A model generated the notes under the pieces. It was not told the DNA's origin, did no database searches, and saw nothing but the letters and a program-made list of their open reading frames with translations. Shown piece after piece: positions 35,774 through 62,152 of a DNA stretch of 64,000 nt. Source of the DNA: Gammaproteobacteria bacterium (GTDB lineage Bacteria; Pseudomonadota; Gammaproteobacteria; Steroidobacterales; GCA-2729495). How positions within the stretch are numbered: the first letter of the stretch is position 1; every line of letters begins with the position of its first letter. The position numbers and the translations under genes were made by a program. The stretch covers positions 744,001 to 808,000 of the forward strand of contig CP054183.1 in assembly GCA_015709695.1 (NCBI GenBank), read 5' to 3'.

Positions 35774-37317
35774 CGCTGCAGCAGCCGGTCCCGGGGCTGG
35801 GGCGGCTGCCGCCGCCGCTGCTGGTGGGACTGCTGGCTGGCGCGGTATTGCTGGCCTTCCTGCCAACCCTGGCGTCGATGGCGCGGGTATGGGCACGGTC
35901 GGACACCTTTGCCCATGGAGTCCTGATCCTGCCTGTCTGCGCCTGGCTGCTCTACCGGCAGCGTGCCGTGCTGGCCGCCACGGAGGCCCGGCCCTGCTGG
36001 TGGGGTCTGCCGGCGCTGCTGGCCTGCCTGGCCGGCTGGCTGATCGGCAGCCTGGTGCAGGCGGACGTGGTGCGACAGTTCGCCATGATGCTGATGATCC
36101 CGGCGCTGGTGCTGCTGGTCCTCGGCCCGGCGGTCCTGCGGGTGGCGAGCTTCCCCCTCGTGTTCGCGCTGCTGGCCGTACCCGCGGGTGAATTCCTCAT
36201 CCCGCCGATGATGAACCTGACCGCCGATGGCAGCGCATGGATGCTGAAGGCTTCCGGCGTCCCGGTGTTCCAGGACGGCTGGCTGATCAGCATTCCGTCC
36301 GGCGACTTCCAGGTGGCCGATGCCTGCAGCGGCGTGCGCTACCTGATCGCTGCGGCAACGGCGGGGTTGCTGTTCGCGTATTTCTTCTATCGCGGCTGGA
36401 GAAAGCGTCTCCTTTTCATGGCGTTCGTCGTGCTATTCACAGTGATGGCGAATGTCCTGCGTGCCTATATAATCGTGCTGCTTGCGCACTGGAGCGACAT
36501 GAGGCTCGCGGCGGGCGTGGATCACTTCATATATGGGTGGTTCCTGTTCTCGATCCTGCTGGTCGTGCTGTTCGGCGTGGGTTTGCGGTTTGCCGACACC
36601 GGGGCGATGCCGGTGATTGCCCCGTCGGCGCGCTTCGCAGGCACGCTCAGCCGGCGTCCGGCTGCCTTCCTGGCCAGTGCCGGTGCCGGTGGCCTGGTGC
36701 TGGCGCTGGGCCTGCTCGTTTCCACCCGCCTGGGCGCAGGTCCGGGTGGCGATGGGCAGCCCGCGGCCGCGGCGCTCCCGGCGAGTCTGGCCGGGGCGAC
36801 GCTGACGGGAAGCGCCGATTCGCCGGTTTGGCTGGCGGCAGGGACGGGGTGGGCGGCCGAGCACCTGGCCTACACCGGGGCACCGGGCTTCGAGGTACAC
36901 GTCTTCCAGGCCGGGAGCGGGCCAGGCGGGCGGGACCTCAGCTTGCTGCGTGAACGTCTGGCCGGCGACCTGGTGGTGCTGGTCGACGAACGGGAAGCCG
37001 CCGTGCCGTCGGCCGCCGGTCCGGTGCCGGTGCGCCAGATGCGGCTGCACGAGGGTAGCCGGGACCTCATGGTGGCCTACTGGTTCGACGTTGGCGGGGC
37101 ACGAATTGCGAACCCGGTCACTGCAAAAATCGCGGAAGTCCGGACAATGATGCAGGGCGAGCATAAGAAACCGGCGCTGATAGCTGTGGCGCTCGATATC
37201 ACAGGTCTCGACCGGCCAGAGGATTCCCTGCATGCGATCATCGCCGACCTGGCAGCCGCGCTGGCCGATTGCAGGCCTGCAGCGCAGCAGCCCGGCGTGG
37301 CGTGCGACCACGATTAG
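35770..37317 (+). CDS. xrtA: Exosortase A fused to EpsI domain
   Basis: This 515-residue protein has an N-terminal exosortase of about 8 membrane segments (residues 20-280) and a C-terminal EpsI domain (about 320-515). The catalytic triad of the exosortase/archaeosortase family is intact: Cys186 in DACSGVR, Arg231 in NVLRAY and His252 in DHFIYGW. Exosortase A recognises the C-terminal PEP-CTERM signal of exported proteins, cleaves it and is thought to transfer the protein to the cell envelope. No PEP-CTERM substrate is encoded in the window. The start overlaps the FemAB-like stop by 4 bases. Confidence 0.93.
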   Translation: MTLQQPVPGLGRLPPPLLVGLLAGAVLLAFLPTLASMARVWARSDTFAHGVLILPVCAWLLYRQRAVLAATEARPCWWGLPALLACLAGWLIGSLVQADVVRQFAMMLMIPALVLLVLGPAVLRVASFPLVFALLAVPAGEFLIPPMMNLTADGSAWMLKASGVPVFQDGWLISIPSGDFQVADACSGVRYLIAAATAGLLFAYFFYRGWRKRLLFMAFVVLFTVMANVLRAYIIVLLAHWSDMRLAAGVDHFIYGWFLFSILLVVLFGVGLRFADTGAMPVIAPSARFAGTLSRRPAAFLASAGAGGLVLALGLLVSTRLGAGPGGDGQPAAAALPASLAGATLTGSADSPVWLAAGTGWAAEHLAYTGAPGFEVHVFQAGSGPGGRDLSLLRERLAGDLVVLVDEREAAVPSAAGPVPVRQMRLHEGSRDLMVAYWFDVGGARIANPVTAKIAEVRTMMQGEHKKPALIAVALDITGLDRPEDSLHAIIADLAAALADCRPAAQQPGVACDHD

Positions 37318-44050: not shown

Positions 44051-45946
44051 ATGTGCGGCATCACCGGCATCTTCTCCTCGCGCGACGCGGCCCCGATCGA
44101 CATGGACGCGCTGCGGGTCATGAACGACAGCCAGCGGCACCGCGGTCCCGACGACGAGGGCTTCCACGTCGAGCCCGGCGTCGGCCTCGGCCATCGCCGC
44201 CTGTCGATCATCGATCTCTCGACCGGCAAGCAGCCCTTGTACAACGAGGACGAGTCGGTCGTCGTGGTGTTCAACGGCGAGATCTACAACTTCATGGACC
44301 TGCGCCGCGAGCTGGAAGGCCACGGTCACCGTTTCCGCACCCGTACCGACACCGAGGTCATCGTGCATGCCTGGGAGCAGTGGGGGCGGGAATGCGTGCG
44401 GCGATTCCGCGGCATGTTCGCGCTGGCGGTCTGGGACCGCAACCGCAGCGAGCTGTTCCTGGCCCGCGATCGCCTGGGCAAGAAGCCGCTGTACTACAGC
44501 GTCCTCGCCGACGGCCGGGTGGTGTTCGCCTCCGAGCTGAAGGCGCTGATGCGCCATGGCGGCATCCGCCGCGAGGTCGATCCCTGCGCGGTGGAGGAGT
44601 ACTTCGCGCTGGGCTACGTCGCCGATCCCCGCTGCATCCTCGCCGGCGTCAGCAAGCTGCCGGCCGCCTCGACCCTGGTCATTGCACGCGGCCGCCCGGT
44701 GCCGGCGCCGGTGGCCTACTGGGACGTGCGCTTCGCCAGCACCACCCAGGCCGGGACGGAGCAGGTGGTGGACAGCCTGGCCGAGCGGCTGCAGGAAGCC
44801 GTGCGCATCCGCATGATCGCCGACGTGCCCGTGGGCGCCTTCCTCTCCGGGGGCGTGGATTCCAGTGGCGTGGTGGCGATGATGGCGCGAGCCTCGGCCC
44901 AGCCGGTCAATACCTGCTCCATCTCCTTCGGCGACCCGGCATTCAACGAGTCGACCCACGCGCAGAAAGTCGCGGAGGCACTTGGCACCCGGCACTTCGT
45001 CGAGCAGGTGGACCCGGACGATTTCAGCCTCGTCGACCGCCTCGCCAGCATCTACGACGAACCGTTTGCCGACAGCTCGGCACTGCCCACCTACCGGGTC
45101 TGCGAGCTGGCGCGCAAGCACGTCAAGGTGGCCCTGTCGGGCGATGGTGGCGACGAGGTCTTCGGCGGCTATCGCCGCTACCGCTGGCACCTGCGGGAAG
45201 AGGCATTGCGCAACCTCCTGCCCTACAGCCTGCGCCGCCCGCTGTTCGGCCTGCTCGGCGCCCTGTACCCGAAGGCAGACTGGGCGCCGCGCGTGCTGCG
45301 CGCCAAGGCGACCCTGCAGGCGCTGGCGCGATCCAGCGTCGAGGCGTACTTCGACAGCCTGGCGATATCGCGCAATGACCTGCGCAGCAGCCTGTTCTCC
45401 CCGCGCCAGCGCTCGGCACTGCAGGGCTACGGCGCCCTGGACATCTTCCGTCGCTACGAGCGCGAGGCCGCCGGCCTGCCACGCCTGTCGCAGATCCAGT
45501 ACATCGACATCAAGACCTACCTGGTGGGAGACATCCTCACCAAGGTCGACCGTGCCAGCATGGCCCACAGCCTGGAAGTGCGCGTGCCGATCCTCGACCA
45601 CGAACTGGTGGAGTGGGCGGCCAGCCTGCCGCCGGACCTGAAGCTGCACCGCGGGGAGGGCAAGTACGTGCTCAAGCAGGCGGTGGCCCGCATGGTGCCG
45701 CGCGATGTGGTGTACCGGCCGAAGATGGGCTTCGCCGTGCCGCTGGCGCGCTGGTTCCGTGCCGAGTTGCGCGAGCGCCTGCGCAGCCGTCTGCTGGACG
45801 GAACGCTGGCGGACACCGGCCTGTTCAGCATGGATGTGGTGGAGCGGCTGGTGTCGCAGCACCAGTCCGGGCTGCGCGACCACAGCGCCATCCTCTGGTC
45901 GCTGCTGATCTACGAGAGTTTCAACCGCGAGGTCCTGGCGGCATGA
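44051..45946 (+). CDS. asnB: XrtA/PEP-CTERM amidotransferase (asparagine-synthetase type)
   Basis: This 631-residue protein is a glutamine-dependent asparagine synthetase homologue. The N-terminal Cys2 nucleophile is intact (MCGITGIF), as are the PP-loop SGGVDSSG and ALSGDGGDEVFGGY of the C-terminal synthetase. Within exosortase A loci this family probably transfers ammonia to a sugar or other carboxylate rather than to aspartate. It lies in the glycosyltransferase run and is followed by a second, related amidotransferase. Confidence 0.88.
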   Translation: MCGITGIFSSRDAAPIDMDALRVMNDSQRHRGPDDEGFHVEPGVGLGHRRLSIIDLSTGKQPLYNEDESVVVVFNGEIYNFMDLRRELEGHGHRFRTRTDTEVIVHAWEQWGRECVRRFRGMFALAVWDRNRSELFLARDRLGKKPLYYSVLADGRVVFASELKALMRHGGIRREVDPCAVEEYFALGYVADPRCILAGVSKLPAASTLVIARGRPVPAPVAYWDVRFASTTQAGTEQVVDSLAERLQEAVRIRMIADVPVGAFLSGGVDSSGVVAMMARASAQPVNTCSISFGDPAFNESTHAQKVAEALGTRHFVEQVDPDDFSLVDRLASIYDEPFADSSALPTYRVCELARKHVKVALSGDGGDEVFGGYRRYRWHLREEALRNLLPYSLRRPLFGLLGALYPKADWAPRVLRAKATLQALARSSVEAYFDSLAISRNDLRSSLFSPRQRSALQGYGALDIFRRYEREAAGLPRLSQIQYIDIKTYLVGDILTKVDRASMAHSLEVRVPILDHELVEWAASLPPDLKLHRGEGKYVLKQAVARMVPRDVVYRPKMGFAVPLARWFRAELRERLRSRLLDGTLADTGLFSMDVVERLVSQHQSGLRDHSAILWSLLIYESFNREVLAA

Positions 45947-45980: not shown

Positions 45981-47927
45981 ATGTGCGGCATTCACGGCGT
46001 CATGGCCCTGGACGGCGCACCGCTGGATCCGGCGGTGGCCGCCCGCATGGGCACGGTCAGCCGCCACCGCGGGCCTGATGACGCCGGGCTGTTCGTCACC
46101 GACGGCCTGCTGCTCGGCATGCGGCGCCTGTCGATCATCGATCTCGCCGGCGGGCACCAGCCGCTGCACGATGCGGACGGCTCCATCCAGCTGGTCTGCA
46201 ACGGCGAGATCTACAATTTCCGCGAGCTGCGCCGCGAACTCGAGGCGCGTGGCCGCCGCTTCGCCACCGGCAGCGACTGCGAGGTGCTGGTGCACCTGTA
46301 CGCCGAGCAGGGCGAGGCCATGGTCAGCCGACTCGATGGCATGTTCGGCTTCGCCCTCTGGGACCAGCGTCGCCGCCGCCTGGTCCTTGGCCGGGACCGG
46401 CTCGGCATCAAGCCGCTCTATTACTGGCTGGAGGGAAACCGGCTCGCCTTCGCCTCGGAAATCAAGTCGCTGCTCGAAGTCCCGGGCGTGAGCGCGGAGA
46501 TGGATTCCGCCAGCCTCGACCAGCTGCTCTACCTGGGCTACGTGGCCTCGCCGCGCACGCTGTTCCGCGGGGTCCGCAAGCTGCCGCCCGGCCACCTGCT
46601 GGTGGTGGAGGAGGGCCGGGTGGACATCCGGCCGTACTGGCGGCCGACTGCGGCGGCCGACCCTGCCCTGGGCGAGGCCGAGGCCCGCGAGGAACTGCGG
46701 GCGACGCTGCGCGATTCGGTGCGGGCGCAGATGGTGGCCGATGTGCCGCTGGGCGCCTTCCTCAGCGGCGGGCTGGATTCCAGTGCCGTGGTGGCGCTGA
46801 TGGCCGGGGCGGGCAGCGGGCCGACGAAGACCTACTCGATCGGCTTCGACCTCGGTGCGGCCGGGGCGTACTACAACGAGCTGCCCGATGCGCGGCGCGT
46901 GGCGGAGCACTTCGGTACCGATCACCACGAGATCATCGTCCGGCCGGACGTGGCCGAGCTGCTGCCGAAGCTCATCTGGCACATGGACGAGCCGCTGGCG
47001 GATTCCGCCATCATCACCACCTTCCTGGTGGCCGAATTCGCCCGCCGCAGCGTCACCGTCATCCTCTCCGGTGTTGGTGGCGACGAGCTGCTCGGCGGCT
47101 ATCGCCGCTACCTGGGACCCCACTACCTGCAGCGATTCAACCGCGTGCCCCGCTGGCTGCGGGAGGGCTGCATGGTGCCGCTGGCGCGATGGCTGCCCAG
47201 CGATCGCCACGGGCCCGTATCCAACCTGCTGCGCTATGCACGCGAGTTCATCAGCCATTCCTCCCTGCCGCCGCAGCAGCAGTACCAGGCCTACGTGCGG
47301 CTGTTCGATGCGCAGGCGCGCGCCGGCCTGCTCGCTGCGCCGCCGTCCAGCCCGGCACCGGATCCGCTGGCCGCCGCCTTCGCGCGCGTCGATGCCGCGG
47401 ACTTCGTCAACGGCCTGATGCAGGTGGATCTGGAGACGCAACTGCCCGACGACCTGCTGCTGCTCACCGACAAGATGACCATGGCCTGCTCGCTGGAGTG
47501 CCGCGTGCCCATCCTCGGCAATGCCATGGTCGATCTGGCGCTGCGCCTGCCCTCGTCGCTGAAGATCCGCAACGGCCGCCTCAAGCACCTGTTCAAGTCG
47601 GCGATGGCGGACCTGCTGCCGCCGGAGACGCTGGGCAAGGCGAAGCGTGGCTTCGGGGCGCCCATGGGGGCATGGCTGAAGAAGGAGCTGCGCCCGCTCA
47701 TGCAGCTGACACTGTCGCCCGAGGTGGTGGCGCGCCGCGGTCTGTTCCGGCCCGCGGCCGTGAGCGAGGCCATGGCGCTGCACGAGAGTTCGCGGCGTGA
47801 CTACTCCGATCACCTGCAGTGCCTGATGAACCTGGAGATCTGGTCGCGCATCTACCTCGATGGGCGCAGCCCCGCCGATGTCTCGCTGGAACTGGCCGAC
47901 GGCCTGAGGACGCGGGTGGCGGCATGA
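45981..47927 (+). CDS. asnB: Second asparagine-synthetase-type amidotransferase
   Basis: This 648-residue protein is a paralogue of the preceding one. It retains Cys2 (MCGIHGVM), the synthetase PP-loop SGGLDSSA, and ILSGVGGDELLGGY with Val at one variable position. Its own substrate is unknown but is probably a carboxylated sugar or nucleotide. It overlaps the next glycosyltransferase by 4 bases (ATGA). Two intact copies in tandem suggest amidation of two different positions. Confidence 0.86.
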   Translation: MCGIHGVMALDGAPLDPAVAARMGTVSRHRGPDDAGLFVTDGLLLGMRRLSIIDLAGGHQPLHDADGSIQLVCNGEIYNFRELRRELEARGRRFATGSDCEVLVHLYAEQGEAMVSRLDGMFGFALWDQRRRRLVLGRDRLGIKPLYYWLEGNRLAFASEIKSLLEVPGVSAEMDSASLDQLLYLGYVASPRTLFRGVRKLPPGHLLVVEEGRVDIRPYWRPTAAADPALGEAEAREELRATLRDSVRAQMVADVPLGAFLSGGLDSSAVVALMAGAGSGPTKTYSIGFDLGAAGAYYNELPDARRVAEHFGTDHHEIIVRPDVAELLPKLIWHMDEPLADSAIITTFLVAEFARRSVTVILSGVGGDELLGGYRRYLGPHYLQRFNRVPRWLREGCMVPLARWLPSDRHGPVSNLLRYAREFISHSSLPPQQQYQAYVRLFDAQARAGLLAAPPSSPAPDPLAAAFARVDAADFVNGLMQVDLETQLPDDLLLLTDKMTMACSLECRVPILGNAMVDLALRLPSSLKIRNGRLKHLFKSAMADLLPPETLGKAKRGFGAPMGAWLKKELRPLMQLTLSPEVVARRGLFRPAAVSEAMALHESSRRDYSDHLQCLMNLEIWSRIYLDGRSPADVSLELADGLRTRVAA

Positions 47928-52705: not shown

Positions 52706-53952
52706 TGCCAGGCCAGCCGGCAGCGGGCGCGACGGTGGCTGCCGCGACGGCACCGCGGATCGCGGTGCTGAGTTCGCTGTTTCCCAGCTCCGAGGAGCCG
52801 GTTGCCGGCATCTTCATCCGCGAGCGCATGGGGCGCGTCGCCGCGCAGCTTCCGGTCACCGTGGTGGCGCCGGTGGGCTGGTTTCCGATGCAGGGGCTGA
52901 TCCGCCGCTTCCGCCCGCATTTCCGCCTGACCCGGCCGGTGGATTCCCGTGACGGCCCGCTGCAGGTGCTGCGGCCGCGCTACTGCTCCATTCCCGGGCC
53001 CATCCTGCTCGACGGGGCTGCCATGGCGGCGGCCTGCACCCCGGTGCTGCGCCGGATCACCGCGGGCGGTGGCAACTGGGTCATCGATGCCCACTTCGCC
53101 TATCCGGACGGCTATGCCGCGAGCCTGGCCGCGGCCCGACTCGGCCTGCCGTACACCATCACGCTGCGCGGCACGGAGCAGCGCCACAGCCGGATGCCCG
53201 CCATCCGCCGCAGGATGGTGGCTGCGCTGGGCGGCGCGAGCCGGGTGTTCTGCGTATCGGAATCCCTGCGCCGGCTGGCGCTGGAGCTCGGCACGAGGGC
53301 CGATCGCGCCGTGGTGGTGCCCAACGGCGTGGATACCGCACGCTACTTCCCGGTGGAACGCGAGCTCGCACGGCGCCGCCTCGGGCTGCCCGTCGATGCC
53401 CGCGTGCTGGTGACGGTTGGTGGCCTGGTGCGTCGCAAGGGCTTTCACCTGGTCATCGGCCGGCTTGCGGAGTGGCGTCGCCGCTGGGGCAATGTCGTCT
53501 ATCTCGCCGTGGGTGGCGCCTCGCGCGAAGGCGACGAGGGAGCCGCGCTGCGCGCCCAGGCGCGGGAGGCCGGCGTGGCCGAGCATGTGCGCTTCCTCGG
53601 TGCCTTGCCGCCGGAGGAGGTGCGGGTGCCGCTCTCGGCGGCCGATGCCATGGTCCTCGCCAGCAGCAACGAGGGCTGGGCGAACGTGTTGCTGGAGTCG
53701 ATGGCCTGCGGCACGCCGGTGGTGGCCAGCGATGTCGGCGGCAACCGCGAGGTGGTGGCGAGCGCGGTGGTCGGCGAGGTGTTCGACCTGCAGGACGCCG
53801 GGGGCCTGGATCGCGCGGTGGGCGAGGCGCTGTCGAAGGCCTGGGACCGCGAGGCCATCGTCGAGTACGCGCGCTGCAACTCATGGAATGCCCGGGTGGA
53901 GCAGCTGGTGGCGGAGTTCCGCGGCATTGCGCAGGCCGCCAGCGTCGCATGA
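52705..53952 (+). CDS. Glycosyltransferase family 4 protein
   Basis: This 415-residue GT-B enzyme has an N-terminal LSSLFPSSEEPVAGIFIRERM and the donor motifs VTVGGLVRRKGFHLVI and ASSNEGWANVLLESMACGTPVVASDVGGN. The start overlaps the previous stop (TGATG) and the stop overlaps the next start (ATGA). Acceptor and donor are not predictable. Confidence 0.85.
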   Translation: MPGQPAAGATVAAATAPRIAVLSSLFPSSEEPVAGIFIRERMGRVAAQLPVTVVAPVGWFPMQGLIRRFRPHFRLTRPVDSRDGPLQVLRPRYCSIPGPILLDGAAMAAACTPVLRRITAGGGNWVIDAHFAYPDGYAASLAAARLGLPYTITLRGTEQRHSRMPAIRRRMVAALGGASRVFCVSESLRRLALELGTRADRAVVVPNGVDTARYFPVERELARRRLGLPVDARVLVTVGGLVRRKGFHLVIGRLAEWRRRWGNVVYLAVGGASREGDEGAALRAQAREAGVAEHVRFLGALPPEEVRVPLSAADAMVLASSNEGWANVLLESMACGTPVVASDVGGNREVVASAVVGEVFDLQDAGGLDRAVGEALSKAWDREAIVEYARCNSWNARVEQLVAEFRGIAQAASVA

Positions 53953-55301
53953 GCCTCTATACGCGATTCGCCTCCGGCCTGCTGTTCCCGCTGCACGAGC
54001 GGCTCAAGGGTCATGGCAGCGTCGCCCTGCGTCGCGAACTCGAGCGCAGCCAGTGGCTGGATGCCACCGCCCTGGAGCGCCTGCGCGAGGCCCGGCTCGG
54101 GCAATTCCTCATGCGCGCCTCGCGCAGTGTCCCGTACTACCGCGAGCTGTTTGCGGCGCAGGGCCTGCGACCCGCGCCATCCATGCCGCTGTCGGCGCTC
54201 GCCAGCCTGCCGATGCTGGACAAGCCCACCATCCGCGCGCAGGCACAGCGGCTCAAGGCCGCCGACGCGGGCCCGCTCAAGCCCTACAACACCGGCGGCT
54301 CCAGCGGCGAACCGCTGCGCTTCTGGATCGACCGCGAGCGCGTCAGCCACGATGTGGCAGCCAAGTGGCGCGCCACTCGCTGGTGGGGTGTGGACATCGG
54401 TGATCCCGAGATCGTCGTCTGGGGTTCGCCGATCGAGCTGGGTGCCCAGGACCGGCTGCGCCAGCTGCGCGACCGCCTGCTGCGCACGCAACTGCTCTCG
54501 GCCTTCCAGCTCGACGAGGCGACGCTCGACCACTACCTGCGAGTGCTGCAGCAGGTGCGCCCGCGCATGCTGTTCGGTTATCCCACGGCGCTGGCCGGCA
54601 TCGCCGCGCACGGCGCGGCGCGCGGCATGGCGCTGGACGCGCTCGGCATCCGCGTCGTGTTCGTCACTTCCGAGCAGCTGTTCCCCGACCAGCGCGAGCG
54701 CATCGCCAGGGCCTTCGGCTGCCCGGTGGCCAACGGCTACGGCGGCCGCGATTTCGGCTTTGTCGCGCACGAGTGCCCGTCAGGGCGCCTGCACCTGTCG
54801 GCAGAGGACATCATCGTCGAGATCGTCGACGCCGAAGGCAGGGTGCAGCCCGCCGGGACGGCCGGCGAGGTGGTGGTGACCCACCTGCGAACCCCGGGCT
54901 TCCCGTTCATCCGCTATCGCACCGGTGACATCGCCGTGCTGGACCCGGCGCCCTGCAGCTGCGGGCGGGGCCTGCCGGTGTTGCGGGAGGTGCAGGGGCG
55001 CACCACGGATTTCGTCGTGACCACCAGCGGGGCGAAGGTGCATGCGCTGGCGCTGATCTACGTGGTCCGCGACCTCGAGGGCATCCGCCAGTTCCGCATC
55101 GTCCAGCAGGCGCGCGACCGGCTCAGCCTGGAGCTGGTGCGCGACCCGGGATTCCGCGAGGCGCTGCTGCCGGAGATCGAGCGGCAGTTCCGCCTCCGGC
55201 TCGGTCAGGACCTGCAGGTGAGCTTCCGCTTCGTGGATGCGATCGCCCCGGCGAGCTCCGGCAAGCACCGCTACGTCGTCAACGAGGTTCCCCCCGGCTG
55301 A
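53949..55301 (+). CDS. Phenylacetate-CoA-ligase-like adenylate-forming protein (CapK-like)
   Basis: This 450-residue protein belongs to the PaaK/CapK branch of adenylating enzymes. Signature motifs are the ATP-binding YNTGGSSGEPLRF, NGYGGRDFGFVAHECP, the YRTGDIAVLDP hinge and GRTTDFVV, and C-terminal KHRYV has a candidate Lys. These enzymes activate a carboxylic acid and pass it to CoA or an acceptor. In polysaccharide loci they may add acyl or amino-acid groups to sugars. It ends the plus-strand operon and meets a convergent gene 18 bases on. Confidence 0.82.
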   Translation: MSLYTRFASGLLFPLHERLKGHGSVALRRELERSQWLDATALERLREARLGQFLMRASRSVPYYRELFAAQGLRPAPSMPLSALASLPMLDKPTIRAQAQRLKAADAGPLKPYNTGGSSGEPLRFWIDRERVSHDVAAKWRATRWWGVDIGDPEIVVWGSPIELGAQDRLRQLRDRLLRTQLLSAFQLDEATLDHYLRVLQQVRPRMLFGYPTALAGIAAHGAARGMALDALGIRVVFVTSEQLFPDQRERIARAFGCPVANGYGGRDFGFVAHECPSGRLHLSAEDIIVEIVDAEGRVQPAGTAGEVVVTHLRTPGFPFIRYRTGDIAVLDPAPCSCGRGLPVLREVQGRTTDFVVTTSGAKVHALALIYVVRDLEGIRQFRIVQQARDRLSLELVRDPGFREALLPEIERQFRLRLGQDLQVSFRFVDAIAPASSGKHRYVVNEVPPG

Positions 55302-55319: not shown

Positions 55320-57116
55320 TCAGAGGTGCTGTGCGGCCAGCCATTCCTCCAGCATGAACAGCGTCCACATCAGGGCGCCGTAGTACACGGCGTGCTCGGT
55401 CTGCTGGAGCCGCAGCAGGTCGTCGATGAAGGCCGGCTGGATGATGCCGCGCCGGCCGAGTGCCTGCAGCCGCCCCTGCACGCGATCGCGCAACACCGGG
55501 TCGCCGTTGATCCACAGGCCGACCGGAACGCCGAAGCCGTGCTTTTCCTTGTTGATGACCTCCGCCGGCAGGAAGCCGGCGAAGGCTTCCTTGTAGAACT
55601 TGCGCAGCTCGCGCAGCGTGAGCTTGGCGCTGCTCGGGACGCGGGTGGAGACCGCGGCCACGCGCGGGTCCAGCATCGGGAAGTGCACCGAGACGCTAGC
55701 GAGGTCACAGGCCATGCGCACCTTGCGCAGGTCGTTGTCGGCGAGCGTCAGGGCCCAGTCGAGGTAGAGCATGCGGTCGAGCGCATCGCCCGTGGCGGGC
55801 TCGGCATAGACGGCGCGGGCATAGGCATGCGGTGCGTCCGGGTCGATCTGCCGCAGGAACTCCGGTGTCAGTACGCCGGCCGGATCGTTGCGCACCAGCA
55901 GGTTGTAGCTGAACAGCCGGTCGGGCAGCGGCACGCGCGCCTGGTCGACGTAGCTGGCCAGCTTGCGCAGCGGCCCGGGCGCGCGACGGCTCAGCGCCGC
56001 CAGCGGGTCGACCGCCACCGTGCGCAGCCAGGCCGGCAAGCCGCCGTAGAGGTTGAACACCGACTGCTTCTGGTAGCGCTCGTTGCCGGCGAACAGCTCG
56101 TCACCACCATCGCCGGCCAGCAGCCGGCTGATGCCGGCATCGCGCGCGAACTGCGCGCAGAGGTAGGCAGAGACGGCCGAGGCGTTGCCGAAGGGCTCGG
56201 GGAAGGCACCGATCACGCGATCGAGGCAGGCCGTGACATCGGCGGAGTGGATGCATTTCTCGTGCAGGTCCAGGCCGAAGTGGCGGGCCGAGATGCGGGC
56301 GTAGCGGCTTTCATCGTAGTCCGGTACGTCGAAGCCGATGGTGAAGGCGCGCACGCCGCTGCCGGCGTGCCGTGCCGCCAGGCCACACACGCTGGAGCTG
56401 TCGAGGCCGCCGCTGAGGAAGCAGCCCATCCCGGGCAGGTTGGCGACGCGACCGACGGCAGCCGAGATCGCCTCGAAGCTCTCCTGGCGCAGCCCGTCGA
56501 GTGCGGTGTCCGTGTGCCGGAACCCGGGCTGCCAGTAGCGTCGCAGGCTGCTGCGGCCGTCGCGCCAGCTGAGGGTGCTGGCCGACGGCAGCTTGTGCAC
56601 GCCCTTGAAGATGCTGCGGCTTCCGGGAACGACGTTGAAGAACAGGTAGTCGAACAGCGCCTGCGGGTCGATCGCCCCCGCGGCGCCGGCGCGCCGGGCA
56701 ACCCAGCCGAGGTCGGTGCCGAAGGCCAGGCCACCGGGCACGCTGGCGTAGTAGACCGGCACGGAGCCGAAGGCATCGCTGGCCAGCACCAGGGAGCGGC
56801 TGGCGCTGTCCATGGCGAGCAGCGCGAACTCCCCGCCGATGGTCGCCAGCGCCGGGCTGTCGCCGGCGGCGGCACGCGCCAAGGCGGGGGCCGGATCGTC
56901 GCCGCCGGCCTCCGTTCCGTAGGGTGCGCCGACGCAGGCGTAGAACGCGCCGGCTGCTTCATGCGACCGCAGGCGTCCCGTCGTGGCCGAGGCAAACCAC
57001 TGCAGGCCGTGGAGTGAACCGCTGGCGTGGCTGGCCTGTCCGGCCATGGCGTCTGGTCCGGGCTCCAGCGCCTGGCCAGGCGCCGGGTCGGTGATGCAGC
57101 CGATCAGGTAATCCAT
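55320..57116 (-). CDS. Asparagine-synthetase-like protein without glutaminase Cys
   Basis: This 598-residue protein has the two-domain layout of AsnB, but its N-terminus is MDYLIG, so the glutaminase nucleophile Cys2 is absent. The synthetase half is complete: FLSGGLDSSSVCG PP-loop and LLAGDGGDELFAGNERY. Such Cys-less AsnB relatives (for example beta-lactam synthetase and lasso-peptide cyclase) activate a carboxylate with ATP and join it to an amine. I chose ATG 57116, since the longer frame is unlike the family. It is the last gene of a minus-strand operon with two hydrolases and an acyl carrier protein. Confidence 0.85.
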   Translation of the reverse strand: MDYLIGCITDPAPGQALEPGPDAMAGQASHASGSLHGLQWFASATTGRLRSHEAAGAFYACVGAPYGTEAGGDDPAPALARAAAGDSPALATIGGEFALLAMDSASRSLVLASDAFGSVPVYYASVPGGLAFGTDLGWVARRAGAAGAIDPQALFDYLFFNVVPGSRSIFKGVHKLPSASTLSWRDGRSSLRRYWQPGFRHTDTALDGLRQESFEAISAAVGRVANLPGMGCFLSGGLDSSSVCGLAARHAGSGVRAFTIGFDVPDYDESRYARISARHFGLDLHEKCIHSADVTACLDRVIGAFPEPFGNASAVSAYLCAQFARDAGISRLLAGDGGDELFAGNERYQKQSVFNLYGGLPAWLRTVAVDPLAALSRRAPGPLRKLASYVDQARVPLPDRLFSYNLLVRNDPAGVLTPEFLRQIDPDAPHAYARAVYAEPATGDALDRMLYLDWALTLADNDLRKVRMACDLASVSVHFPMLDPRVAAVSTRVPSSAKLTLRELRKFYKEAFAGFLPAEVINKEKHGFGVPVGLWINGDPVLRDRVQGRLQALGRRGIIQPAFIDDLLRLQQTEHAVYYGALMWTLFMLEEWLAAQHL

Positions 57117-57135
57117 GGCGGCTCCGTGGTGCTGT

Positions 57136-57999
57136 TCAGCCAGCCTGCGTGCCGGCGGGAACCCGCAGGCCGGAGAGCCACTGAAGCGTGATGTCTGCGG
57201 CCTCGTTCCGCCATGCGGCGCTGGAAAAAGTGTGGGTTGCGCTGTCGATTGCGCGCCGGGTGACGCTCGGTCGCGCCAGCAGGTCCTGCCAGGCCGGGGT
57301 CTCCGCCAGGACGCGGAACTCCGCCGCCGTGATGTCCTGGCCACTGAGCAGCACCAGCACCGGCAGCGTGAAGGCGGCCAGGCTGCCGCGCATGCGCGCC
57401 ACGAAATCACCGTCATCGTCGCCCGGTGCACCGGCAGCGCCGCGGCGGACATTCCCGGCGAGATCGCCGAGCACCCTGCCGGTACGCAGCCGTCCCGACA
57501 GCAGCTTGCGCCAGAAGTCGCGGCTCAGCAGGCGGTCGAGGTAGTAGTGGCGCAGGTAGGCGCGTGCCAGGCCGGCCTCCGAGCGTACCCAGGGATTGAC
57601 CAGTGCCAGTCCGGCGATGCGGCTGTCACTGCCGGCGTAGAGCAGGGCCGCGGAGGCACCATCGCACAGGCCCCACAGCACCACGCGGCGCACCGCGGGG
57701 ATGTGCTCGCACAGCGTGTCGACCGCGGCGGCGATGTCCGCCGAAATGTGCTCGAAGCCCGGGAATTCGCCGCCGCTGTCGCCCATGCCGCGGCAGTCGA
57801 AGCGCAGGACCGCGAAGCCTTCCTGCAGCAGGTGCCGGGCCAGCAGCGTGAACTGGCGATGGCTCCCTGTCCGGTACTGCGGTCCGCCGACGACGATCAC
57901 CACGCCGAGTGCGCGCGGCGCAGCCGGCCTGCCGAGGATGCCGACCAGTTCCTCGCCCTGGCAGGCGAAGCGCACGGCCTGTTCGTCGCTCATGGGCAT
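57136..57999 (-). CDS. Exosortase A system-associated hydrolase 1 (alpha/beta fold)
   Basis: This 287-residue alpha/beta hydrolase has VVIVVGGPQYRTGSHRQF, FDCRGMGDSGG and the nucleophile elbow GLCDGAS, where Cys112 takes the place of the usual Ser. SGQDITAAEF (Asp) and SATHTFSS (His) complete a possible Cys-Asp-His triad. It matches the TIGR03100 family, of unknown function. A thioesterase or acyltransferase role fits the acyl carrier protein nearby. It overlaps hydrolase 2 by 10 bases; ATG 57993 is an alternative start. Confidence 0.84.
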   Translation of the reverse strand: MPMSDEQAVRFACQGEELVGILGRPAAPRALGVVIVVGGPQYRTGSHRQFTLLARHLLQEGFAVLRFDCRGMGDSGGEFPGFEHISADIAAAVDTLCEHIPAVRRVVLWGLCDGASAALLYAGSDSRIAGLALVNPWVRSEAGLARAYLRHYYLDRLLSRDFWRKLLSGRLRTGRVLGDLAGNVRRGAAGAPGDDDGDFVARMRGSLAAFTLPVLVLLSGQDITAAEFRVLAETPAWQDLLARPSVTRRAIDSATHTFSSAAWRNEAADITLQWLSGLRVPAGTQAG

Positions 58000-58838
58000 G
58001 CGGCCAGCAGCGGCAGGGTGCGTTGCACGATGCCGTGGCCCACCGTGATTTCCGCCGTGCTCCAGAACGGCGGGTCACGCTGCTGCAGCAGTTCGGCACG
58101 GCTGCCAGCGGTCTGCAGGGCGGCGACCAGGCTGACCGCTGCCGGGCGCATGGCGCCCGCCTCGTCGCCGGTCACCTCGATCCACGACAGCGGCGGCCAC
58201 CCGGGCGGCGTGGGCGGCGCGAGCGCCGTGGCATCCAGCGCGTTCACCAGATCCGGAGCCAGCATGTAGCCGACCGCTTCCACCGCCTGGCCGGCCGCGA
58301 GCTGCCCGCGCAGCTGTGCCACCGAATCGCGGGTCCCGGGCTGCAGGTTCGCGGCGATCCGCGTGCGCAGCAGGTCGGTCACCACGGCTTTGCCGGTGAG
58401 GACCGGCTGCCAGAGCACCAGGCGCTGCACCTGCCCGAGGCCGCCGCGCAGCAGGTCCCAGGCGAGCAGGGCGCCCGCGCGGATCCCGACCAGCACGAGA
58501 CTCGTGCAGTCCTGCTGTCGCAGCCAGTCGGCGGCGGCACGCAGGTCGTCGAGCCAGGCGTCCCAGCGGGCATCGGCGAAATCACCGGGGCTGTCGCCGG
58601 TACCGTGCAGGTCGGGGTAGATGGCGCAGGCGCCCTGGCTGGCTGCCGCGCCAGCCAGCAACCGCATGGTGCGGCGTGTGCGGTTCATCTCCTCGCCGAA
58701 GGCCGGGCAGACGAGCACACCCACGCGGGATGGCGTGGCGAAGGGCCTGGCCGCCAGCGCGAATATCCGCTGGCCGCGGGACGGCAGGAACAGGGGCAGG
58801 ATGTCGGCTCGGCCAGTGACCTGGTTCGGCCCGGGCAC
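57990..58838 (-). CDS. Exosortase A system-associated hydrolase 2 (alpha/beta fold)
   Basis: This 282-residue alpha/beta hydrolase-fold protein matches the TIGR03101 type. The elbow reads GIRAG, with Arg120 where Ser should be, so ordinary hydrolysis is unlikely; it may bind ligands or pair with hydrolase 1. Other fold motifs are VCPAFGEEMNRTRR and YPDLHGTGDSPG. The start is GTG at 58838, which overlaps the acyl-carrier stop (TAGTG). Four tightly packed genes follow one promoter. Confidence 0.82.
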   Translation of the reverse strand: MPGPNQVTGRADILPLFLPSRGQRIFALAARPFATPSRVGVLVCPAFGEEMNRTRRTMRLLAGAAASQGACAIYPDLHGTGDSPGDFADARWDAWLDDLRAAADWLRQQDCTSLVLVGIRAGALLAWDLLRGGLGQVQRLVLWQPVLTGKAVVTDLLRTRIAANLQPGTRDSVAQLRGQLAAGQAVEAVGYMLAPDLVNALDATALAPPTPPGWPPLSWIEVTGDEAGAMRPAAVSLVAALQTAGSRAELLQQRDPPFWSTAEITVGHGIVQRTLPLLAACP

Positions 58839-59116
58839 TACTGCGTCACTTTGCTCTGCACGAACTCGACCAGCGAGCCGAAGGTGGCGAAGGTCTCGGC
58901 CGAGATCTCGTCATCGTCCACCACGAACCCGAACTGGTCCTCCAGCGCCGTGATGACGGTGACGACGGCCATCGAGTCCAGCTCGGGGAGGGCACCGAGC
59001 AGCGCAGAACCCTCTTCCAGCCGGGCTGCCCGTTCGCCCAGCTGCAGGGTGTCCCTCAGGATCGCGCGAAGCTGCTGATCCAGCATGTCGTGAATTCTCC
59101 GGTTTTCCAGTGCCAC
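58838..59116 (-). CDS. Acyl carrier protein
   Basis: This 92-residue acidic four-helix protein has the phosphopantetheine site PELDSMAVV (Ser48), the DSL-like motif with Met for Leu. It is a dedicated carrier rather than the fatty-acid AcpP, since it is longer and sits with exosortase A genes. It should hold the acyl or aminoacyl group loaded by an adenylating enzyme in this locus. It heads the minus-strand operon. ATG 59086 (MLDQQLRAIL) is an alternative start. Confidence 0.9.
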   Translation of the reverse strand: MALENRRIHDMLDQQLRAILRDTLQLGERAARLEEGSALLGALPELDSMAVVTVITALEDQFGFVVDDDEISAETFATFGSLVEFVQSKVTQ

Positions 59117-59158
59117 GGGTCCTGGGAGTGCCTGGGCGGACCCCGCGGGCGCAGGAAT

Positions 59159-59186
59159 CTTATAGTAAAAACAGTGTTTCGCCCAA
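59159..59186 (-). promoter_or_regulatory. Likely promoter of the acyl-carrier operon
   Basis: On the minus strand TTGGGC (59186-59181) and TATAAG (59164-59159) are 16 bases apart. An overlapping sigma54-like GG-N10-GC pattern (minus strand, about 59195-59180) is present but a poor match to consensus. The divergent ligase gene may use an AT-rich TAAAAT at 59234-59239. Confidence 0.45.
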
Positions 59187-59334
59187 TGAACGCCAGTATG
59201 CTGTGGTTCGCAGCCCGCCGTCCGTGCGTTGTTTAAAATATCCTGAAAACAGACCCGGCTAACCGGAATGCGCGCAGGCGTGTTCCTCGGGGGGCGGGGA
59301 AGTCCGGAAACCAGACCCTCCAGGCCGCACGCCC

Positions 59335-60927
59335 ATGAGCGAACTCCTGCACCAGCTGATTATGTCGTCCGCCCTGCGCCACGGCACACGGCCCGCGCTG
59401 ACCGACGCGGCGCGCACGGTGACCTACGAGGCGCTGGCGCTCGGCATCGGCAGCCTCGCCGCCGGGCTCGCCGGTGCCGGCATGCGCCGCACGACGCGCG
59501 TGGCGGTCTACCTGCCGAAGAGCCTGGAGGCCGTCGAGGCCTTTTTTGCGACCGCCATGGGCGGCGGTATCTTCGTGCCGGTCAACCCGCTGCTCAAGCC
59601 GCGCCAGGTGGCCTACATCCTGCAGGACTCGGGTGCCGAGCTGCTGATCACCTCGACGGACCGACTCTCCGCCCTGGCGGGCGAGCTGCGCGACTGCCCT
59701 GACCTGCGGACCGTGGTCACGGTCGAGGCCACGGCGGTGGATGCACCCCCGTCGCTGCGGGTGCTGTCCATGGCCGCGTTGCGGGCCGAGGCGCCGGCGC
59801 TCGCGGCACCGTGCATCGTCGACGAGGACATCGTCTCCATCTTCTACACCTCCGGCAGCACCGGCCGCCCCAAGGGCGTGGTGCTCAGCCACCGCAACAT
59901 GGTCGCCGGCGCGCACAGCGTGGCGAGCTACCTGGAGAACCGGCCTGAGGACAGCATCCTCGCCGTGCTGCCGTTCAGCTTCGACTACGGGTTCAGCCAG
60001 CTGACCACCGCTTTCCACAGCGGGGCGCGGGCGGTGTTGCTGAACTACCTGCTGCCGAACGACGTGCTGCGCGCGGCGCAGCGCGAGCGCGTCACCGGAC
60101 TCGCCGGCGTGCCGCCGCTGTGGATCCAGCTGGCTGCGCTGGAGTGGCCCGAGACGGTGCGCGAGCACCTTCGCTACATCACCAATTCGGGCGGCAAGCT
60201 TCCCGTCGCCACGATCCAGAAGCTGCGTCAGCGGTTGCCGTCCACCCGGCTGTACCTGATGTATGGCCTGACCGAGGCGTTCCGTTCGACGTATCTGCCA
60301 CCCGAGCTGGCCGACCAGCGGCCGACCTCCATCGGCAAGGCGATTCCCAACGCGGAGATCCTCGTGGTGCGGCCCGATGGCACGGAATGCGGGCCGGATG
60401 AGCCGGGTGAACTGGTGCACCGCGGAGCGCTGGTAGCCAAGGGCTACTGGCGCGATCCGGATCGGACCCGCGAGCGCTTCCGGCCGGTGCCGGGCCAGCT
60501 GCCGGGCGTGCCGCTGACGGAGATGGCCGTCTGGTCCGGGGACACCGTGCAGCGCGATGCGGAGGGCTTCCTCTACTTCGTCGGCCGCCACGACGAGATG
60601 ATCAAGACCTCGGGCTATCGCGTCAGCCCCACGGAGGTCGAGGAGGCCCTGTACGCCACGCAGATGGTGGCCGGTGCCGTGGCTTTCGGCATCGAGCATG
60701 CCAGCCTCGGGCAGAGCATCGCCGTGGTGGTGGAGGCTGCCGACGGCCATGCGCCCGACACCGAGCGCCTGCTCGCCGGGTGCCGCCAGGCCCTGCCGCC
60801 GTTCATGGTGCCGGCGACCGTGGTGTGGGAGACCGACCTGCCCCGCAATCCCAACGGCAAGCTGGATCGCAGCGGCATCATCGGCCGCCTGCGGCCGCAG
60901 CTCGAGGCAGCCCGTGATGCGGGCTAG
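59335..60927 (+). CDS. Acyl-CoA ligase (AMP-forming), exosortase A system associated
   Basis: This 530-residue enzyme has the ANL-superfamily ATP motif YTSGSTGRPKG (171-181), the YGLTEAFRSTYLP and SGDTVQRDAEGFLYFVGRHDEMIKTSGY core motifs, and the C-terminal catalytic Lys509 (NPNGKLDR). It fits the TIGR03098 exosortase-associated family. It should form an acyl-AMP and load the neighbouring acyl carrier protein or CoA. It is transcribed divergently from the acyl-carrier operon and overlaps the PLP decarboxylase by 11 bases. Confidence 0.88.
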   Translation: MSELLHQLIMSSALRHGTRPALTDAARTVTYEALALGIGSLAAGLAGAGMRRTTRVAVYLPKSLEAVEAFFATAMGGGIFVPVNPLLKPRQVAYILQDSGAELLITSTDRLSALAGELRDCPDLRTVVTVEATAVDAPPSLRVLSMAALRAEAPALAAPCIVDEDIVSIFYTSGSTGRPKGVVLSHRNMVAGAHSVASYLENRPEDSILAVLPFSFDYGFSQLTTAFHSGARAVLLNYLLPNDVLRAAQRERVTGLAGVPPLWIQLAALEWPETVREHLRYITNSGGKLPVATIQKLRQRLPSTRLYLMYGLTEAFRSTYLPPELADQRPTSIGKAIPNAEILVVRPDGTECGPDEPGELVHRGALVAKGYWRDPDRTRERFRPVPGQLPGVPLTEMAVWSGDTVQRDAEGFLYFVGRHDEMIKTSGYRVSPTEVEEALYATQMVAGAVAFGIEHASLGQSIAVVVEAADGHAPDTERLLAGCRQALPPFMVPATVVWETDLPRNPNGKLDRSGIIGRLRPQLEAARDAG

Positions 60928-62152
60928 CGAAGCGGCGCGCCACACGGCGCTGGACCGGCTGCAGTCACGCGACGGCCAGCTGCTGATCGGCGGCGAGACC
61001 GTGGGTGCCATCCTTGCGCGTGTGGGCCGCACGCCGTTCTATGCCTATGACCGCCAGGCCATCACCACGCGCGTGGCGCAGCTGCGCGCGGCACTGCCGG
61101 CCGACATGCACCTGCACTATGCCATCAAGGCCAATCCCATGACGGAGCTGGTGGCCCACATGGCCGGTCTCGTGGATGGCTTCGACGTCGCTTCCGCAGG
61201 CGAACTCCGCGTGGCGCTGGCAGCCGGGATGGCGCCGGAGCGCATCAGCTTCGCCGGCCCGGGCAAGGCGGCGGCGGAACTGGAAGCGGCGGTGGCCGCC
61301 GGCATCACGGTGCACGTCGAGTCGGAGCGTGAGATCGCCATCCTGCACCAGATCGGCGGCCGAGGCACGCGGCCGCGGCTGGCGATCCGCGTCAATCCCG
61401 CTTTCCAGCTGAAGACCGCCGGCATGAAGATGGGCGGAGGCGCTTCGCAGTTCGGCATCGATGCCGAGCGCGTTCCCGCGATCCTGCGCAGCCTCGACAT
61501 CGGACGTGTGGAGTTCCGCGGCTTCCATATCTTCGCCGGATCGCAGAACCTCAGCGCGGCGGCCATCAGCGAGGCGCAGCTTCAGGCCGTGGCGCTGGCG
61601 GAGGAGCTGGCGGCGGATGCCCCGGCACCGGTCGCCGAACTCAACATCGGCGGCGGCCTGGGCATTCCCTACTTCCCCGGCGAGCAGCCGGTGGATCTCG
61701 CGGCCATCGGCAGCAGCCTCGCGCAGCTCGTGGTGCGGGCGCGCGGCAGCCTGCCGGGTACCCGGCTCATCATGGAACTCGGCCGCTACCTGGTGGGGGA
61801 GGCCGGCTACTATGTCTGCCGTGTCGTCGACCGCAAGGAATCGCGTGGCCGGATTTTCCTCGTGACCGATGGTGGACTGCATCACCACCTTTCCGCCAGC
61901 GGCAACTTCGGCCAGGTGATCCGCAAGAATTATCCCGTCGTCATCGCCAGCCGGATGGGTCAGCCCGCCGGGGAAACCGCCTCGGTGGTCGGGCCCCTGT
62001 GCACGCCGCTCGACCTGCTCGCCGATGGCATGCGGTTTCCGCCGGCCGGTCCCGGTGACCTCGTGGCCGTGCTCCAGTCCGGCGCCTATGGCTTCACGGC
62101 CAGTCCGCTTGGTTTTCTCAGCCATCCGGAGCCGCTGGAGATCCTGGTCTAG
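60917..62152 (+). CDS. PLP-dependent decarboxylase, exosortase A system associated
   Basis: This 411-residue fold-type III enzyme resembles diaminopimelate and ornithine decarboxylases. PLP binds Lys71 (HYAIKANP), with the phosphate-binding LNIGGGLGIPY and the catalytic Cys in VVGPLCTPLDLLADG. It matches TIGR03099. It probably decarboxylates an amino acid (or a carrier-bound one) to an amine. The start ATG 60917 overlaps the ligase gene by 11 bases; a GTG at 60914 is also possible. Confidence 0.87.
   Translation: MRASEAARHTALDRLQSRDGQLLIGGETVGAILARVGRTPFYAYDRQAITTRVAQLRAALPADMHLHYAIKANPMTELVAHMAGLVDGFDVASAGELRVALAAGMAPERISFAGPGKAAAELEAAVAAGITVHVESEREIAILHQIGGRGTRPRLAIRVNPAFQLKTAGMKMGGGASQFGIDAERVPAILRSLDIGRVEFRGFHIFAGSQNLSAAAISEAQLQAVALAEELAADAPAPVAELNIGGGLGIPYFPGEQPVDLAAIGSSLAQLVVRARGSLPGTRLIMELGRYLVGEAGYYVCRVVDRKESRGRIFLVTDGGLHHHLSASGNFGQVIRKNYPVVIASRMGQPAGETASVVGPLCTPLDLLADGMRFPPAGPGDLVAVLQSGAYGFTASPLGFLSHPEPLEILV

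Follow-up and report, generated by a model that had tools for sequence, protein, structure and literature searches.

A 64,000-nucleotide stretch of a gammaproteobacterial genome (GenBank assembly GCA_015709695.1, contig CP054183.1, positions 744,001 to 808,000; hereafter the window) carries a cassette of six genes that encode an acyl carrier protein (ACP), an AMP-forming ligase, a pyridoxal phosphate (PLP) decarboxylase, two alpha/beta-hydrolases (hydrolases 1 and 2), and an AsnB-like amide synthetase, in the wider neighborhood of the gene for exosortase A (XrtA). The cassette is real and coherent, with all six genes in place. We hold with good confidence that its core reaction is the loading of an amino-dicarboxylic acid onto the carrier followed by decarboxylation on the carrier. 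The whole picture, including transfer of the resulting aminoacyl group to the exopolysaccharide, is also our favored reading, although with less assurance.

According to this proposal, the ligase would adenylate the side-chain carboxyl of an amino-dicarboxylic acid, in all likelihood L-aspartate and failing that L-glutamate, and would load the acid onto the phosphopantetheine of the ACP. The decarboxylase would then remove the alpha-carboxyl of the tethered amino acid, yielding a beta- (or gamma-) aminoacyl-S-ACP with a free amine (e.g., beta-alanyl-S-ACP). The Cys of hydrolase 1, with hydrolase 2 as a non-catalytic partner, would move this group to an amine or hydroxyl of an XrtA-linked exopolysaccharide sugar, and the exopolysaccharide would gain a positively charged group, linked as an amide or ester. 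The AsnB-like enzyme would act separately, as an amide synthetase of the XrtA locus: it would couple an amine, though not the ammonia derived from glutamine, with an activated carboxylate, possibly that of a uronic acid. The evidence consists of gene content, linkage, co-occurrence, family relationships, and conserved residues, from which we infer the substrate, the product, the acyl transfer, the acceptor, and the substrate of the AsnB-like enzyme.

The best relative of the decarboxylase in the PDB is BtrK, titled L-glutamyl-[BtrI acyl-carrier protein] decarboxylase (260 bits in a single-sequence search; the next hit, a diaminopimelate decarboxylase, scores 165). With a profile built from 18 members of the family, BtrK scores 364 bits and the best diaminopimelate decarboxylase 245. 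At the conserved cysteine, the motif GPLCTP is shared by 18/18 cassette decarboxylases and BtrK, while 22/22 readable diaminopimelate decarboxylases (LysA) from the same class have GPxCE (24 loci were fetched, of which L183 and L185 were unread), such that the residue following the cysteine is Thr in the former and Glu in the latter. An acidic residue at this position contacts the distal amine of diaminopimelate (or, in the Asp version, of ornithine). In a phylogenetic tree, BtrK groups with the cassette decarboxylases against 21 LysA sequences (20 of plain length and the Aquifex LysA) with a support of 100/100, subject to a long-branch warning. The decarboxylase also falls below the cut-off of the diaminopimelate decarboxylase family TIGR01048 (248 bits; cut-off 298), and another protein in the same genome scores at that cut-off (297.9 bits). 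By sequence, the decarboxylase is closer to BtrK than to LysA. This kinship, together with the missing acidic residue, speaks for a carrier-bound substrate rather than a free amino acid, in which case the amine and the tethered acid would be one molecule. Neither supports the production of a free amine, which had been proposed in an earlier reading made from the DNA sequence alone (hereafter the sequence-only reading). The PLP lysine named there, Lys71 of the 411-aa protein (K70 of the 410-aa reference), is invariant in the 18 decarboxylases. The other decarboxylase of this genome (C1:1079603-1080664) lies in an open frame of more than 850 codons, and may be a fusion with a second enzyme (aspartate kinase, for instance).

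For the full-length ligase, the best solved relatives are a multi-domain gramicidin synthetase, then VinN. When the specificity region is searched on its own, VinN comes first (85 bits), followed by CmiS6 (64), a salicylate ligase (57), and IdnL1 (54); the PDB names of these entries are generic, and we take 3wv4 and 3wvn to be VinN, 5jjp to be CmiS6, and 5jjq to be IdnL1. In VinN, Asp230 recognizes the amino group of 3-methylaspartate, and Ser299 and Arg331 recognize its alpha-carboxyl (excerpt of PMC7756342). When the chain and the published numbering are related by a single constant shift of 16, these residues align to D217, S285, and R317 of the window ligase. Among 21 family ligases, D217 and R317 are invariant and S285 occurs in 19, the other two having Thr; Lys509, described earlier as intact, is likewise invariant in all 21. 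At the Arg site, Ala is found in both CmiS6 and IdnL1, whose substrates have an alkyl or methyl group in place of the carboxylate (excerpt of PMC11284099). Aspartate is the likeliest substrate and beta-alanyl-ACP the likeliest product, with glutamate and gamma-aminobutyrate as the alternative. We rejected 3-methylaspartate, the substrate in the vicenistatin route: the genome has no match to the glutamate mutase E subunit (PF06368), and aspartate or glutamate is therefore preferred. Three relatives of the ligase (L025-L027) have lost the amine-binding Asp and kept the Arg, and are perhaps ligases for non-amino dicarboxylic acids.

The ACP matches the Pfam PP-binding family just above its cut-off (24.9 vs. 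20.8 bits), and an NCBIfam scan returned carrier models only, all below their cut-offs. Its Ser48, which had been pointed out from the sequence, is conserved in 53/53 homologs (13 of the 53 are included in the ACP alignment, A6). Its relative in the PDB is 2lki (85 bits), deposited as a putative uncharacterized protein; this close relative could now receive a pathway.

To place these proteins in a genomic context, we collected 80 decarboxylase loci from named genome records, whose titles are proteobacterial save for one labelled Acidobacteriaceae, and which include Thauera, Zoogloea, Accumulibacter, and Nitrosomonas. Flanks were fetched up to 10 kb and many are cut by contig ends, so the counts for the ACP, the hydrolases, and the AsnB-like gene are lower bounds. 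The ligase lies within the flanks in 78/80 loci, and in 69/80 it is adjacent to the decarboxylase on the same strand; because of this, the linkage of the two genes is not due to chance. The two loci without a ligase (L061 and L083) offer fewer than 725 bases before the decarboxylase. The ACP is found in at least 42 loci, hydrolase 1 (counted above 60 bits) in at least 28, hydrolase 2 in at least 27, and the AsnB-like gene in at least 25, and the gene order ACP, hydrolase 2, hydrolase 1 occurs in 25 of the 80.

Co-occurrence was surveyed in 185 genomes drawn evenly from one class. This sample was used throughout, the rates are valid for that class, and the P values ignore kinship between genomes. 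Curated cut-offs were applied for the ligase, XrtA, and hydrolase 1, and E-value thresholds for the decarboxylase (1e-90), hydrolase 2 (1e-30), and the ACP family (1e-12). The ligase is present in 21 genomes, XrtA in 34, and the decarboxylase in 21 (19 over its curated cut-off). Of the 19 genomes with the ACP family, 18 also carry the decarboxylase (P = 6e-21); the exception, G045, has a weak ACP match (52 bits), and the three decarboxylase genomes without an ACP are 75, 81, and 87% complete. The ligase exceeds its cut-off in 17 of these 18 genomes and scores 452 bits in the remaining one (G158). Because six of the 18 do not reach the XrtA cut-off (one of them, G044, has an exosortase scoring 182 bits against a cut-off of 208), the ACP, ligase, and decarboxylase constitute a generator that occurs also without XrtA over cut-off, and a strict dependence on XrtA does not hold. 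Co-occurrence is nonetheless well above chance, as the sequence-only reading had supposed: the ligase is found in 14 of the 34 XrtA genomes, and XrtA in 14/21 genomes with the ligase vs. 20/164 without it (P = 2e-7).

Hydrolase 1 is over its cut-off in 15/185 genomes, and the ligase is present in 15/15. XrtA occurs in 13 of these 15 (P = 2e-9), but in one of the six genomes that have the ligase and lack hydrolase 1; the hydrolases are therefore an addition to the generator on the XrtA side. Hydrolase 2 is found in 16 genomes (11 over cut-off), namely the 15 genomes with hydrolase 1 and G014, a weak match (123 bits) outside the ligase genomes. Among homologs of hydrolase 1, Cys112 is conserved in 37/37 sequences and Asp222 and His256 in 36/37 each, giving a nucleophile/acid/His set. 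Homologs of hydrolase 2 have Arg120 at the nucleophile position in 36/36 sequences, such that the catalytic nucleophile is missing, and no His occupies any column with conservation in 85% or more of rows. The model alignments comprise 24 of the 37 (A4) and 23 of the 36 sequences (A5), respectively. A structure model of hydrolase 1 (pLDDT 89.6) has alpha/beta-hydrolases as its Foldseek neighbors among the 50 rows shown, with esterases and lipases nearest. Alpha/beta-hydrolases with a Cys nucleophile, e.g., polyhydroxyalkanoate synthase, are often acyltransferases. The pairing of an active and an inactive hydrolase beside an ACP suggests acyl transfer from the carrier. The aminoacyl group would then be transferred by the hydrolases to the XrtA-linked polysaccharide. 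A protein of a Burkholderia exopolysaccharide cluster, Bcam1334, is assigned to the hydrolase 1 family (TIGR03100) in an excerpt of PMC3584217, which does not mention an exosortase.

The AsnB-like protein follows a different pattern. Its residue 2 is Asp, in agreement with the reported absence of Cys2, and an MCG start is found in none of 28 relatives' loci read and in none of the 26 correctly framed among 27 survey matches (L161, for which the wrong frame was chosen, falls outside the count). Many relatives start with MSG(L/I/V)CGW and others lack most of the glutaminase half; the exact starts of proteins with decayed N-termini are unsure. The ATP-binding synthetase half is intact, with the SGGxDSS, GDGGDE, and KxKxGFG regions retained, and the glutaminase half is degraded. 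The structure model (pLDDT 89.8) is nearest to the hydroxyamidotransferase TsnB9, then to beta-lactam synthetase and AsnB. Assignment to TIGR03108, the XrtA amidotransferase family, was tried and rejected (242 bits; cut-off 817). The alignment of the family (A3) has 27 rows, the window protein and 26 of 29 clustered members; L070, a partial MCG-type AsnB, and L078 and L086, which are broken genes, were left out. In the latter two, the gene is split into two open frames (L078:11342-13188 and L086:11339-13173). At a threshold of at least 600 bits, the family occurs in 27 survey genomes (a 28th match, G082, at 372 bits, is an MCG-type AsnB), comprising 25 of the 34 XrtA genomes and two of the 151 others (P = 3e-21). 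Within XrtA genomes, it is found in 11/14 with the ligase and 14/20 without (P = 0.70). Because it tracks XrtA yet is independent of the ligase, the AsnB-like enzyme is XrtA-linked in its own right and is not a fixed part of the module. Proximity to hydrolase 1 (less than 3 kb, same strand), as in the window, recurs in 2/80 loci. Five of the six genes look like one module, with the AsnB-like gene outside of it; as envisaged earlier, the ACP, ligase, decarboxylase, and hydrolases make up a single unit that is largely exosortase-linked. In some species, the AsnB-like enzyme may join the amine made by the cassette to a uronic acid.

These patterns bear on the scheme of the sequence-only reading, in which a free amine comes from the decarboxylase and a different acid is tethered by the ligase and ACP, after which the AsnB-like enzyme would couple amine and acid and the hydrolases would see to the movement or release of the product. 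In support of such a scheme, the AsnB-like gene adjoins hydrolase 1 in the window and immediately follows the decarboxylase in 13/80 loci, its synthetase half is intact, and its fold is near that of beta-lactam synthetase. However, 15 of the 28 hydrolase 1 loci show no AsnB-like match above 150 bits in the fetched flanks, the independence from the ligase within XrtA genomes speaks against a fixed joining step, and the VinN/BtrK signature common to the decarboxylase and the ligase is that of a single tethered amino acid. Furthermore, an AsnB-type enzyme activates its own acid, and therefore would not need the carrier. We consider this scheme very unlikely as a whole. Its components were correctly identified; the reactions that it assigns to them find no support. 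It is next to negligible that the pair represents an ordinary acyl-CoA ligase and a spare diaminopimelate decarboxylase brought together by chance: the general names of the two families and the TIGR01048 score would allow it, but that score is under the cut-off, the motif is GPLCTP and not GPxCE, and both the adjacency in 69 of the 80 loci and a co-occurrence with P of ∼1e-21 speak against it.

Other alternatives accept the carrier-bound chemistry and differ in the fate of its product. Hydrolase 1 could be a thioesterase that releases a free beta-amino acid, as beta-alanine for CoA or as a small diffusible metabolite. Its structural resemblance to esterases and lipases would suit this role, as would the four of 18 genomes that have the ACP and decarboxylase without either hydrolase 1 or XrtA; we nevertheless judge it unlikely, given that the nucleophile is Cys in all homologs, that hydrolase 1 is confined to ligase genomes and mostly accompanied by XrtA, and that an inactive paired hydrolase would have no obvious reason to be retained. 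It is less likely still that the beta-amino acid on the ACP serves as starter or extender unit of a polyketide synthase (PKS) or non-ribosomal peptide synthetase (NRPS) product that has merely hitched onto the XrtA locus. VinN/VinO, BtrK, and BolO/BolN do serve antibiotics or lipopeptides, and in one locus from a proteobacterial metagenome-assembled genome (L074:829-13679) the ligase and decarboxylase (56 and 63% identical to those of the window) directly precede a glycosyltransferase, a condensation domain, two multi-domain proteins (adenylation-carrier, then condensation-adenylation-carrier), and an AsnB whose glutaminase domain is intact. The L074 pair probably feeds this small peptide synthetase, and the uncharacterized locus is probably one for a peptide containing a beta-amino acid; because the pair stands before a peptide synthetase, it also supports the carrier-bound aminoacyl reading. 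On the other hand, condensation-domain matches, with L074's own domains as the only queries, occur in L074 alone among 103 loci and nowhere in the window. The ligase matches adenylation models; otherwise, models of PKS or NRPS proteins gave no match in the 30 open reading frames of the window that were scanned, nor in the 20 scanned clusters of recurrent neighbors (of 45 such clusters identified in 100 loci). The neighbors in those 20 clusters include polysaccharide deacetylases, GNAT acetyltransferases, a DegT aminotransferase, flippases, and regulators, and the cassettes are accompanied by glycosyltransferases, deacetylases, and sugar enzymes.

Several observations weigh against the proposal favored here, i.e., on-carrier decarboxylation with transfer to the exopolysaccharide. 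The branch that leads to BtrK is long, and the decarboxylase resembles LysA too. A related ligase (L023) has all three VinN residues in a 4.5-kb locus without a decarboxylase match, and four others (L024-L027) retain the Arg in 4.5-kb loci that likewise lack one; in the survey, two of the 21 ligase genomes (G077 and G120) lack the ACP and decarboxylase. The fetched flanks contain no ACP in 38/80 decarboxylase loci and no hydrolase 1 in 52/80, including the closest record, L055 (decarboxylase 83% identical), in which the ACP, ligase, and decarboxylase are present and neither hydrolases nor the AsnB-like gene are matched in 21 kb. Hydrolase 1 is found in just 13 of the 34 XrtA genomes, and with esterases and lipases as its structural neighbors, a Cys alpha/beta-hydrolase may hydrolyze too. 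The position of the AsnB-like gene directly behind the decarboxylase in some loci favors a link that is absent from the genome survey. Transfer to a sugar is pure inference: no fixed acceptor gene was found among the 20 scanned clusters of recurrent neighbors, and for L074 a peptide synthetase is a likelier acceptor than a sugar. Likewise, no common acceptor is included among 20 genes that neighbor the ligase in L035, L041, L048, and L044 (a single gene in the last), which represent four genomes whose XrtA matches, if any, do not reach the cut-off; L044 has a tetratricopeptide repeat protein of the kind found in XrtA loci, and L041 a nucleotidyltransferase of a family shared with other cassette loci.

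The proposed chemistry has precedents in natural-product biosynthesis. BtrK, the best solved relative of the decarboxylase and the holder of the same GPLCTP motif, acts with BtrI in the butirosin pathway, where the loading enzyme (BtrJ) is not a ligase of the ANL (acyl-CoA synthetase, NRPS adenylation domain, and luciferase) type and the acceptor is an aminoglycoside, in contrast to the cassette. In vicenistatin biosynthesis, VinN loads 3-methylaspartate onto VinL and VinO decarboxylates it on the carrier to give 3-aminoisobutyryl-ACP (excerpt of PMC11284099). The cassette resembles this system in having a stand-alone VinN-type ligase with the Asp, Ser, and Arg kept, a stand-alone ACP, and a PLP decarboxylase. 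It differs in that VinM (a second stand-alone aminoacyl ligase), VinK (a dipeptidyl transferase), and the amidohydrolase were not recognized in it, in the missing glutamate mutase E subunit, in its exopolysaccharide context, and in its Cys and Arg alpha/beta-hydrolases. For bolagladin, BolO, BolC, and the BtrK-like BolN are proposed to convert aspartate to beta-alanyl-ACP, and a bolN mutant was not rescued by fed beta-alanine (excerpt of PMC7756342). This is again a VinN-like ligase, an ACP, and a BtrK-like decarboxylase, here in a proteobacterium, and the L074 pair before a peptide synthetase is similar to it; unlike the cassette, the bolagladin genes feed an NRPS lipopeptide and lack the XrtA-linked hydrolase pair. 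The ligase, ACP, and decarboxylase of the window fit the VinN/BolO logic. The AsnB-like protein shares its overall fold and intact synthetase half with beta-lactam synthetase, carbapenam synthetase, and TsnB9. Those enzymes act in natural-product pathways, and the AsnB-like family is distinguished from them by its linkage to XrtA and its decayed glutaminase half.

The proposed core chemistry is a known natural-product logic in new use. The ligase, the decarboxylase, and both hydrolases exceed the curated NCBIfam cut-offs of TIGR03098-TIGR03101, families that the sequence-only reading had described as exosortase-linked. These four exosortase A system-associated families are hypothetical equivalogs without a stated reaction, and we propose for them a concrete one that can be tested cheaply: aspartate or glutamate to beta- or gamma-aminoacyl-ACP. 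In our searches of open-license papers, no listing connected these families with BtrK, VinN, or VinO, and no paper that puts forward this chemistry was found. No cassette phenotype appears in the excerpts of PMC4784049, PMC9850573, and PMC3584217, and none of six cassette terms is present in PMC1569441. Amide or acyl chemistry on the exopolysaccharide, as suggested earlier, is plausible. The proposed reaction would carry a logic of antibiotic synthesis over to the polysaccharide that forms the matrix of proteobacteria common in the environment and in activated sludge, and would offer chemical access to the exopolysaccharide found alongside PEP-CTERM protein sorting. A more specific version, in which this antibiotic-style system acts on a biofilm matrix, adding beta-alanyl or gamma-aminobutyryl groups to the XrtA-linked exopolysaccharide by way of the Cys/Arg hydrolase pair and so making it zwitterionic, is offered tentatively, as a possibility that we would not bet on. 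That the installed free amines are acceptors for PEP-CTERM proteins transferred by exosortase A is a long shot, and would be limited to a subset of species because of the restricted occurrence of hydrolase 1 among XrtA genomes. The Cys-less AsnB-like family is set apart by these results, and tracks exosortase A on its own.

The layout of the cassette is given in Table 1. The six genes lie where the sequence-only reading had placed them (55320-62152), as two divergent sets, and the start of the decarboxylase gene runs 11 bases into the 3' end of the ligase gene.

Table 1. Features of the cassette in the window, with the model match or other basis for each.
Feature	Position	Strand	Basis
AsnB-like amide synthetase, Cys-less, 598 aa	55320..57116	-	Asn_synthase (Pfam), 226 bits
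Hydrolase 1, alpha/beta-hydrolase with Cys112 nucleophile, Asp222, His256; predicted acyltransferase	57136..57999	-	TIGR03100, 347 bits (cut-off 168)
Hydrolase 2, alpha/beta-hydrolase with Arg120 at nucleophile site; predicted non-hydrolytic partner	57990..58838	-	TIGR03101, 212 bits (cut-off 203)
Acyl carrier protein (ACP), 92 aa, GTG start, Ser48 (LDSM)	58838..59116	-	Pfam PP-binding
Divergent intergenic region between ACP and ligase transcripts, 218 bases	59117..59334	.	Coordinates
VinN-like AMP-forming ligase; Asp217, Ser285, Arg317, Lys509	59335..60927	+	TIGR03098, 753 bits (cut-off 592)
BtrK-like PLP decarboxylase, Lys71, GPLCTPLD motif	60917..62152	+	TIGR03099, 601 bits (cut-off 478)

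The divergent region contains no match to a sigma-70 or sigma-54 consensus; the sigma-70 scan gave no match, and the terminator scan was no better than shuffled sequence. In Nitrosospira-type loci, the cassette is bordered by a sigma-54 response regulator and a histidine kinase (both identified with Pfam), which had led us to expect sigma-54 control; this idea was rejected, with 16 matches in the window vs. 20 expected and zero in the divergent region. The bordering regulator and kinase are presumably PrsR and PrsK.

XrtA is encoded 18 kb upstream of the cassette (35770-37317; 307 bits, cut-off 208), in a locus that comprises PrsT, FemAB, XrtA, a chain-length protein, a deacetylase, glycosyltransferases, and two further AsnB-type genes. 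One of the latter is the true TIGR03108 AsnB of the window (44051-45946, 1016 bits), and beside it is a second MCG-type AsnB amidotransferase (45981-47927, + strand) with 529 bits, under the cut-off of 817; altogether, the locus has three AsnB-type proteins. A CapK/PaaK-like adenylate-forming protein is encoded at 53949-55301 (+ strand), inside the open reading frame 53472-55301, and was matched in just 2/80 relatives' loci. Elsewhere in the same genome are two more exosortase-like genes (C1:1655964-1656731 and C1:1688667-1689443), both of which score under the XrtA cut-off.

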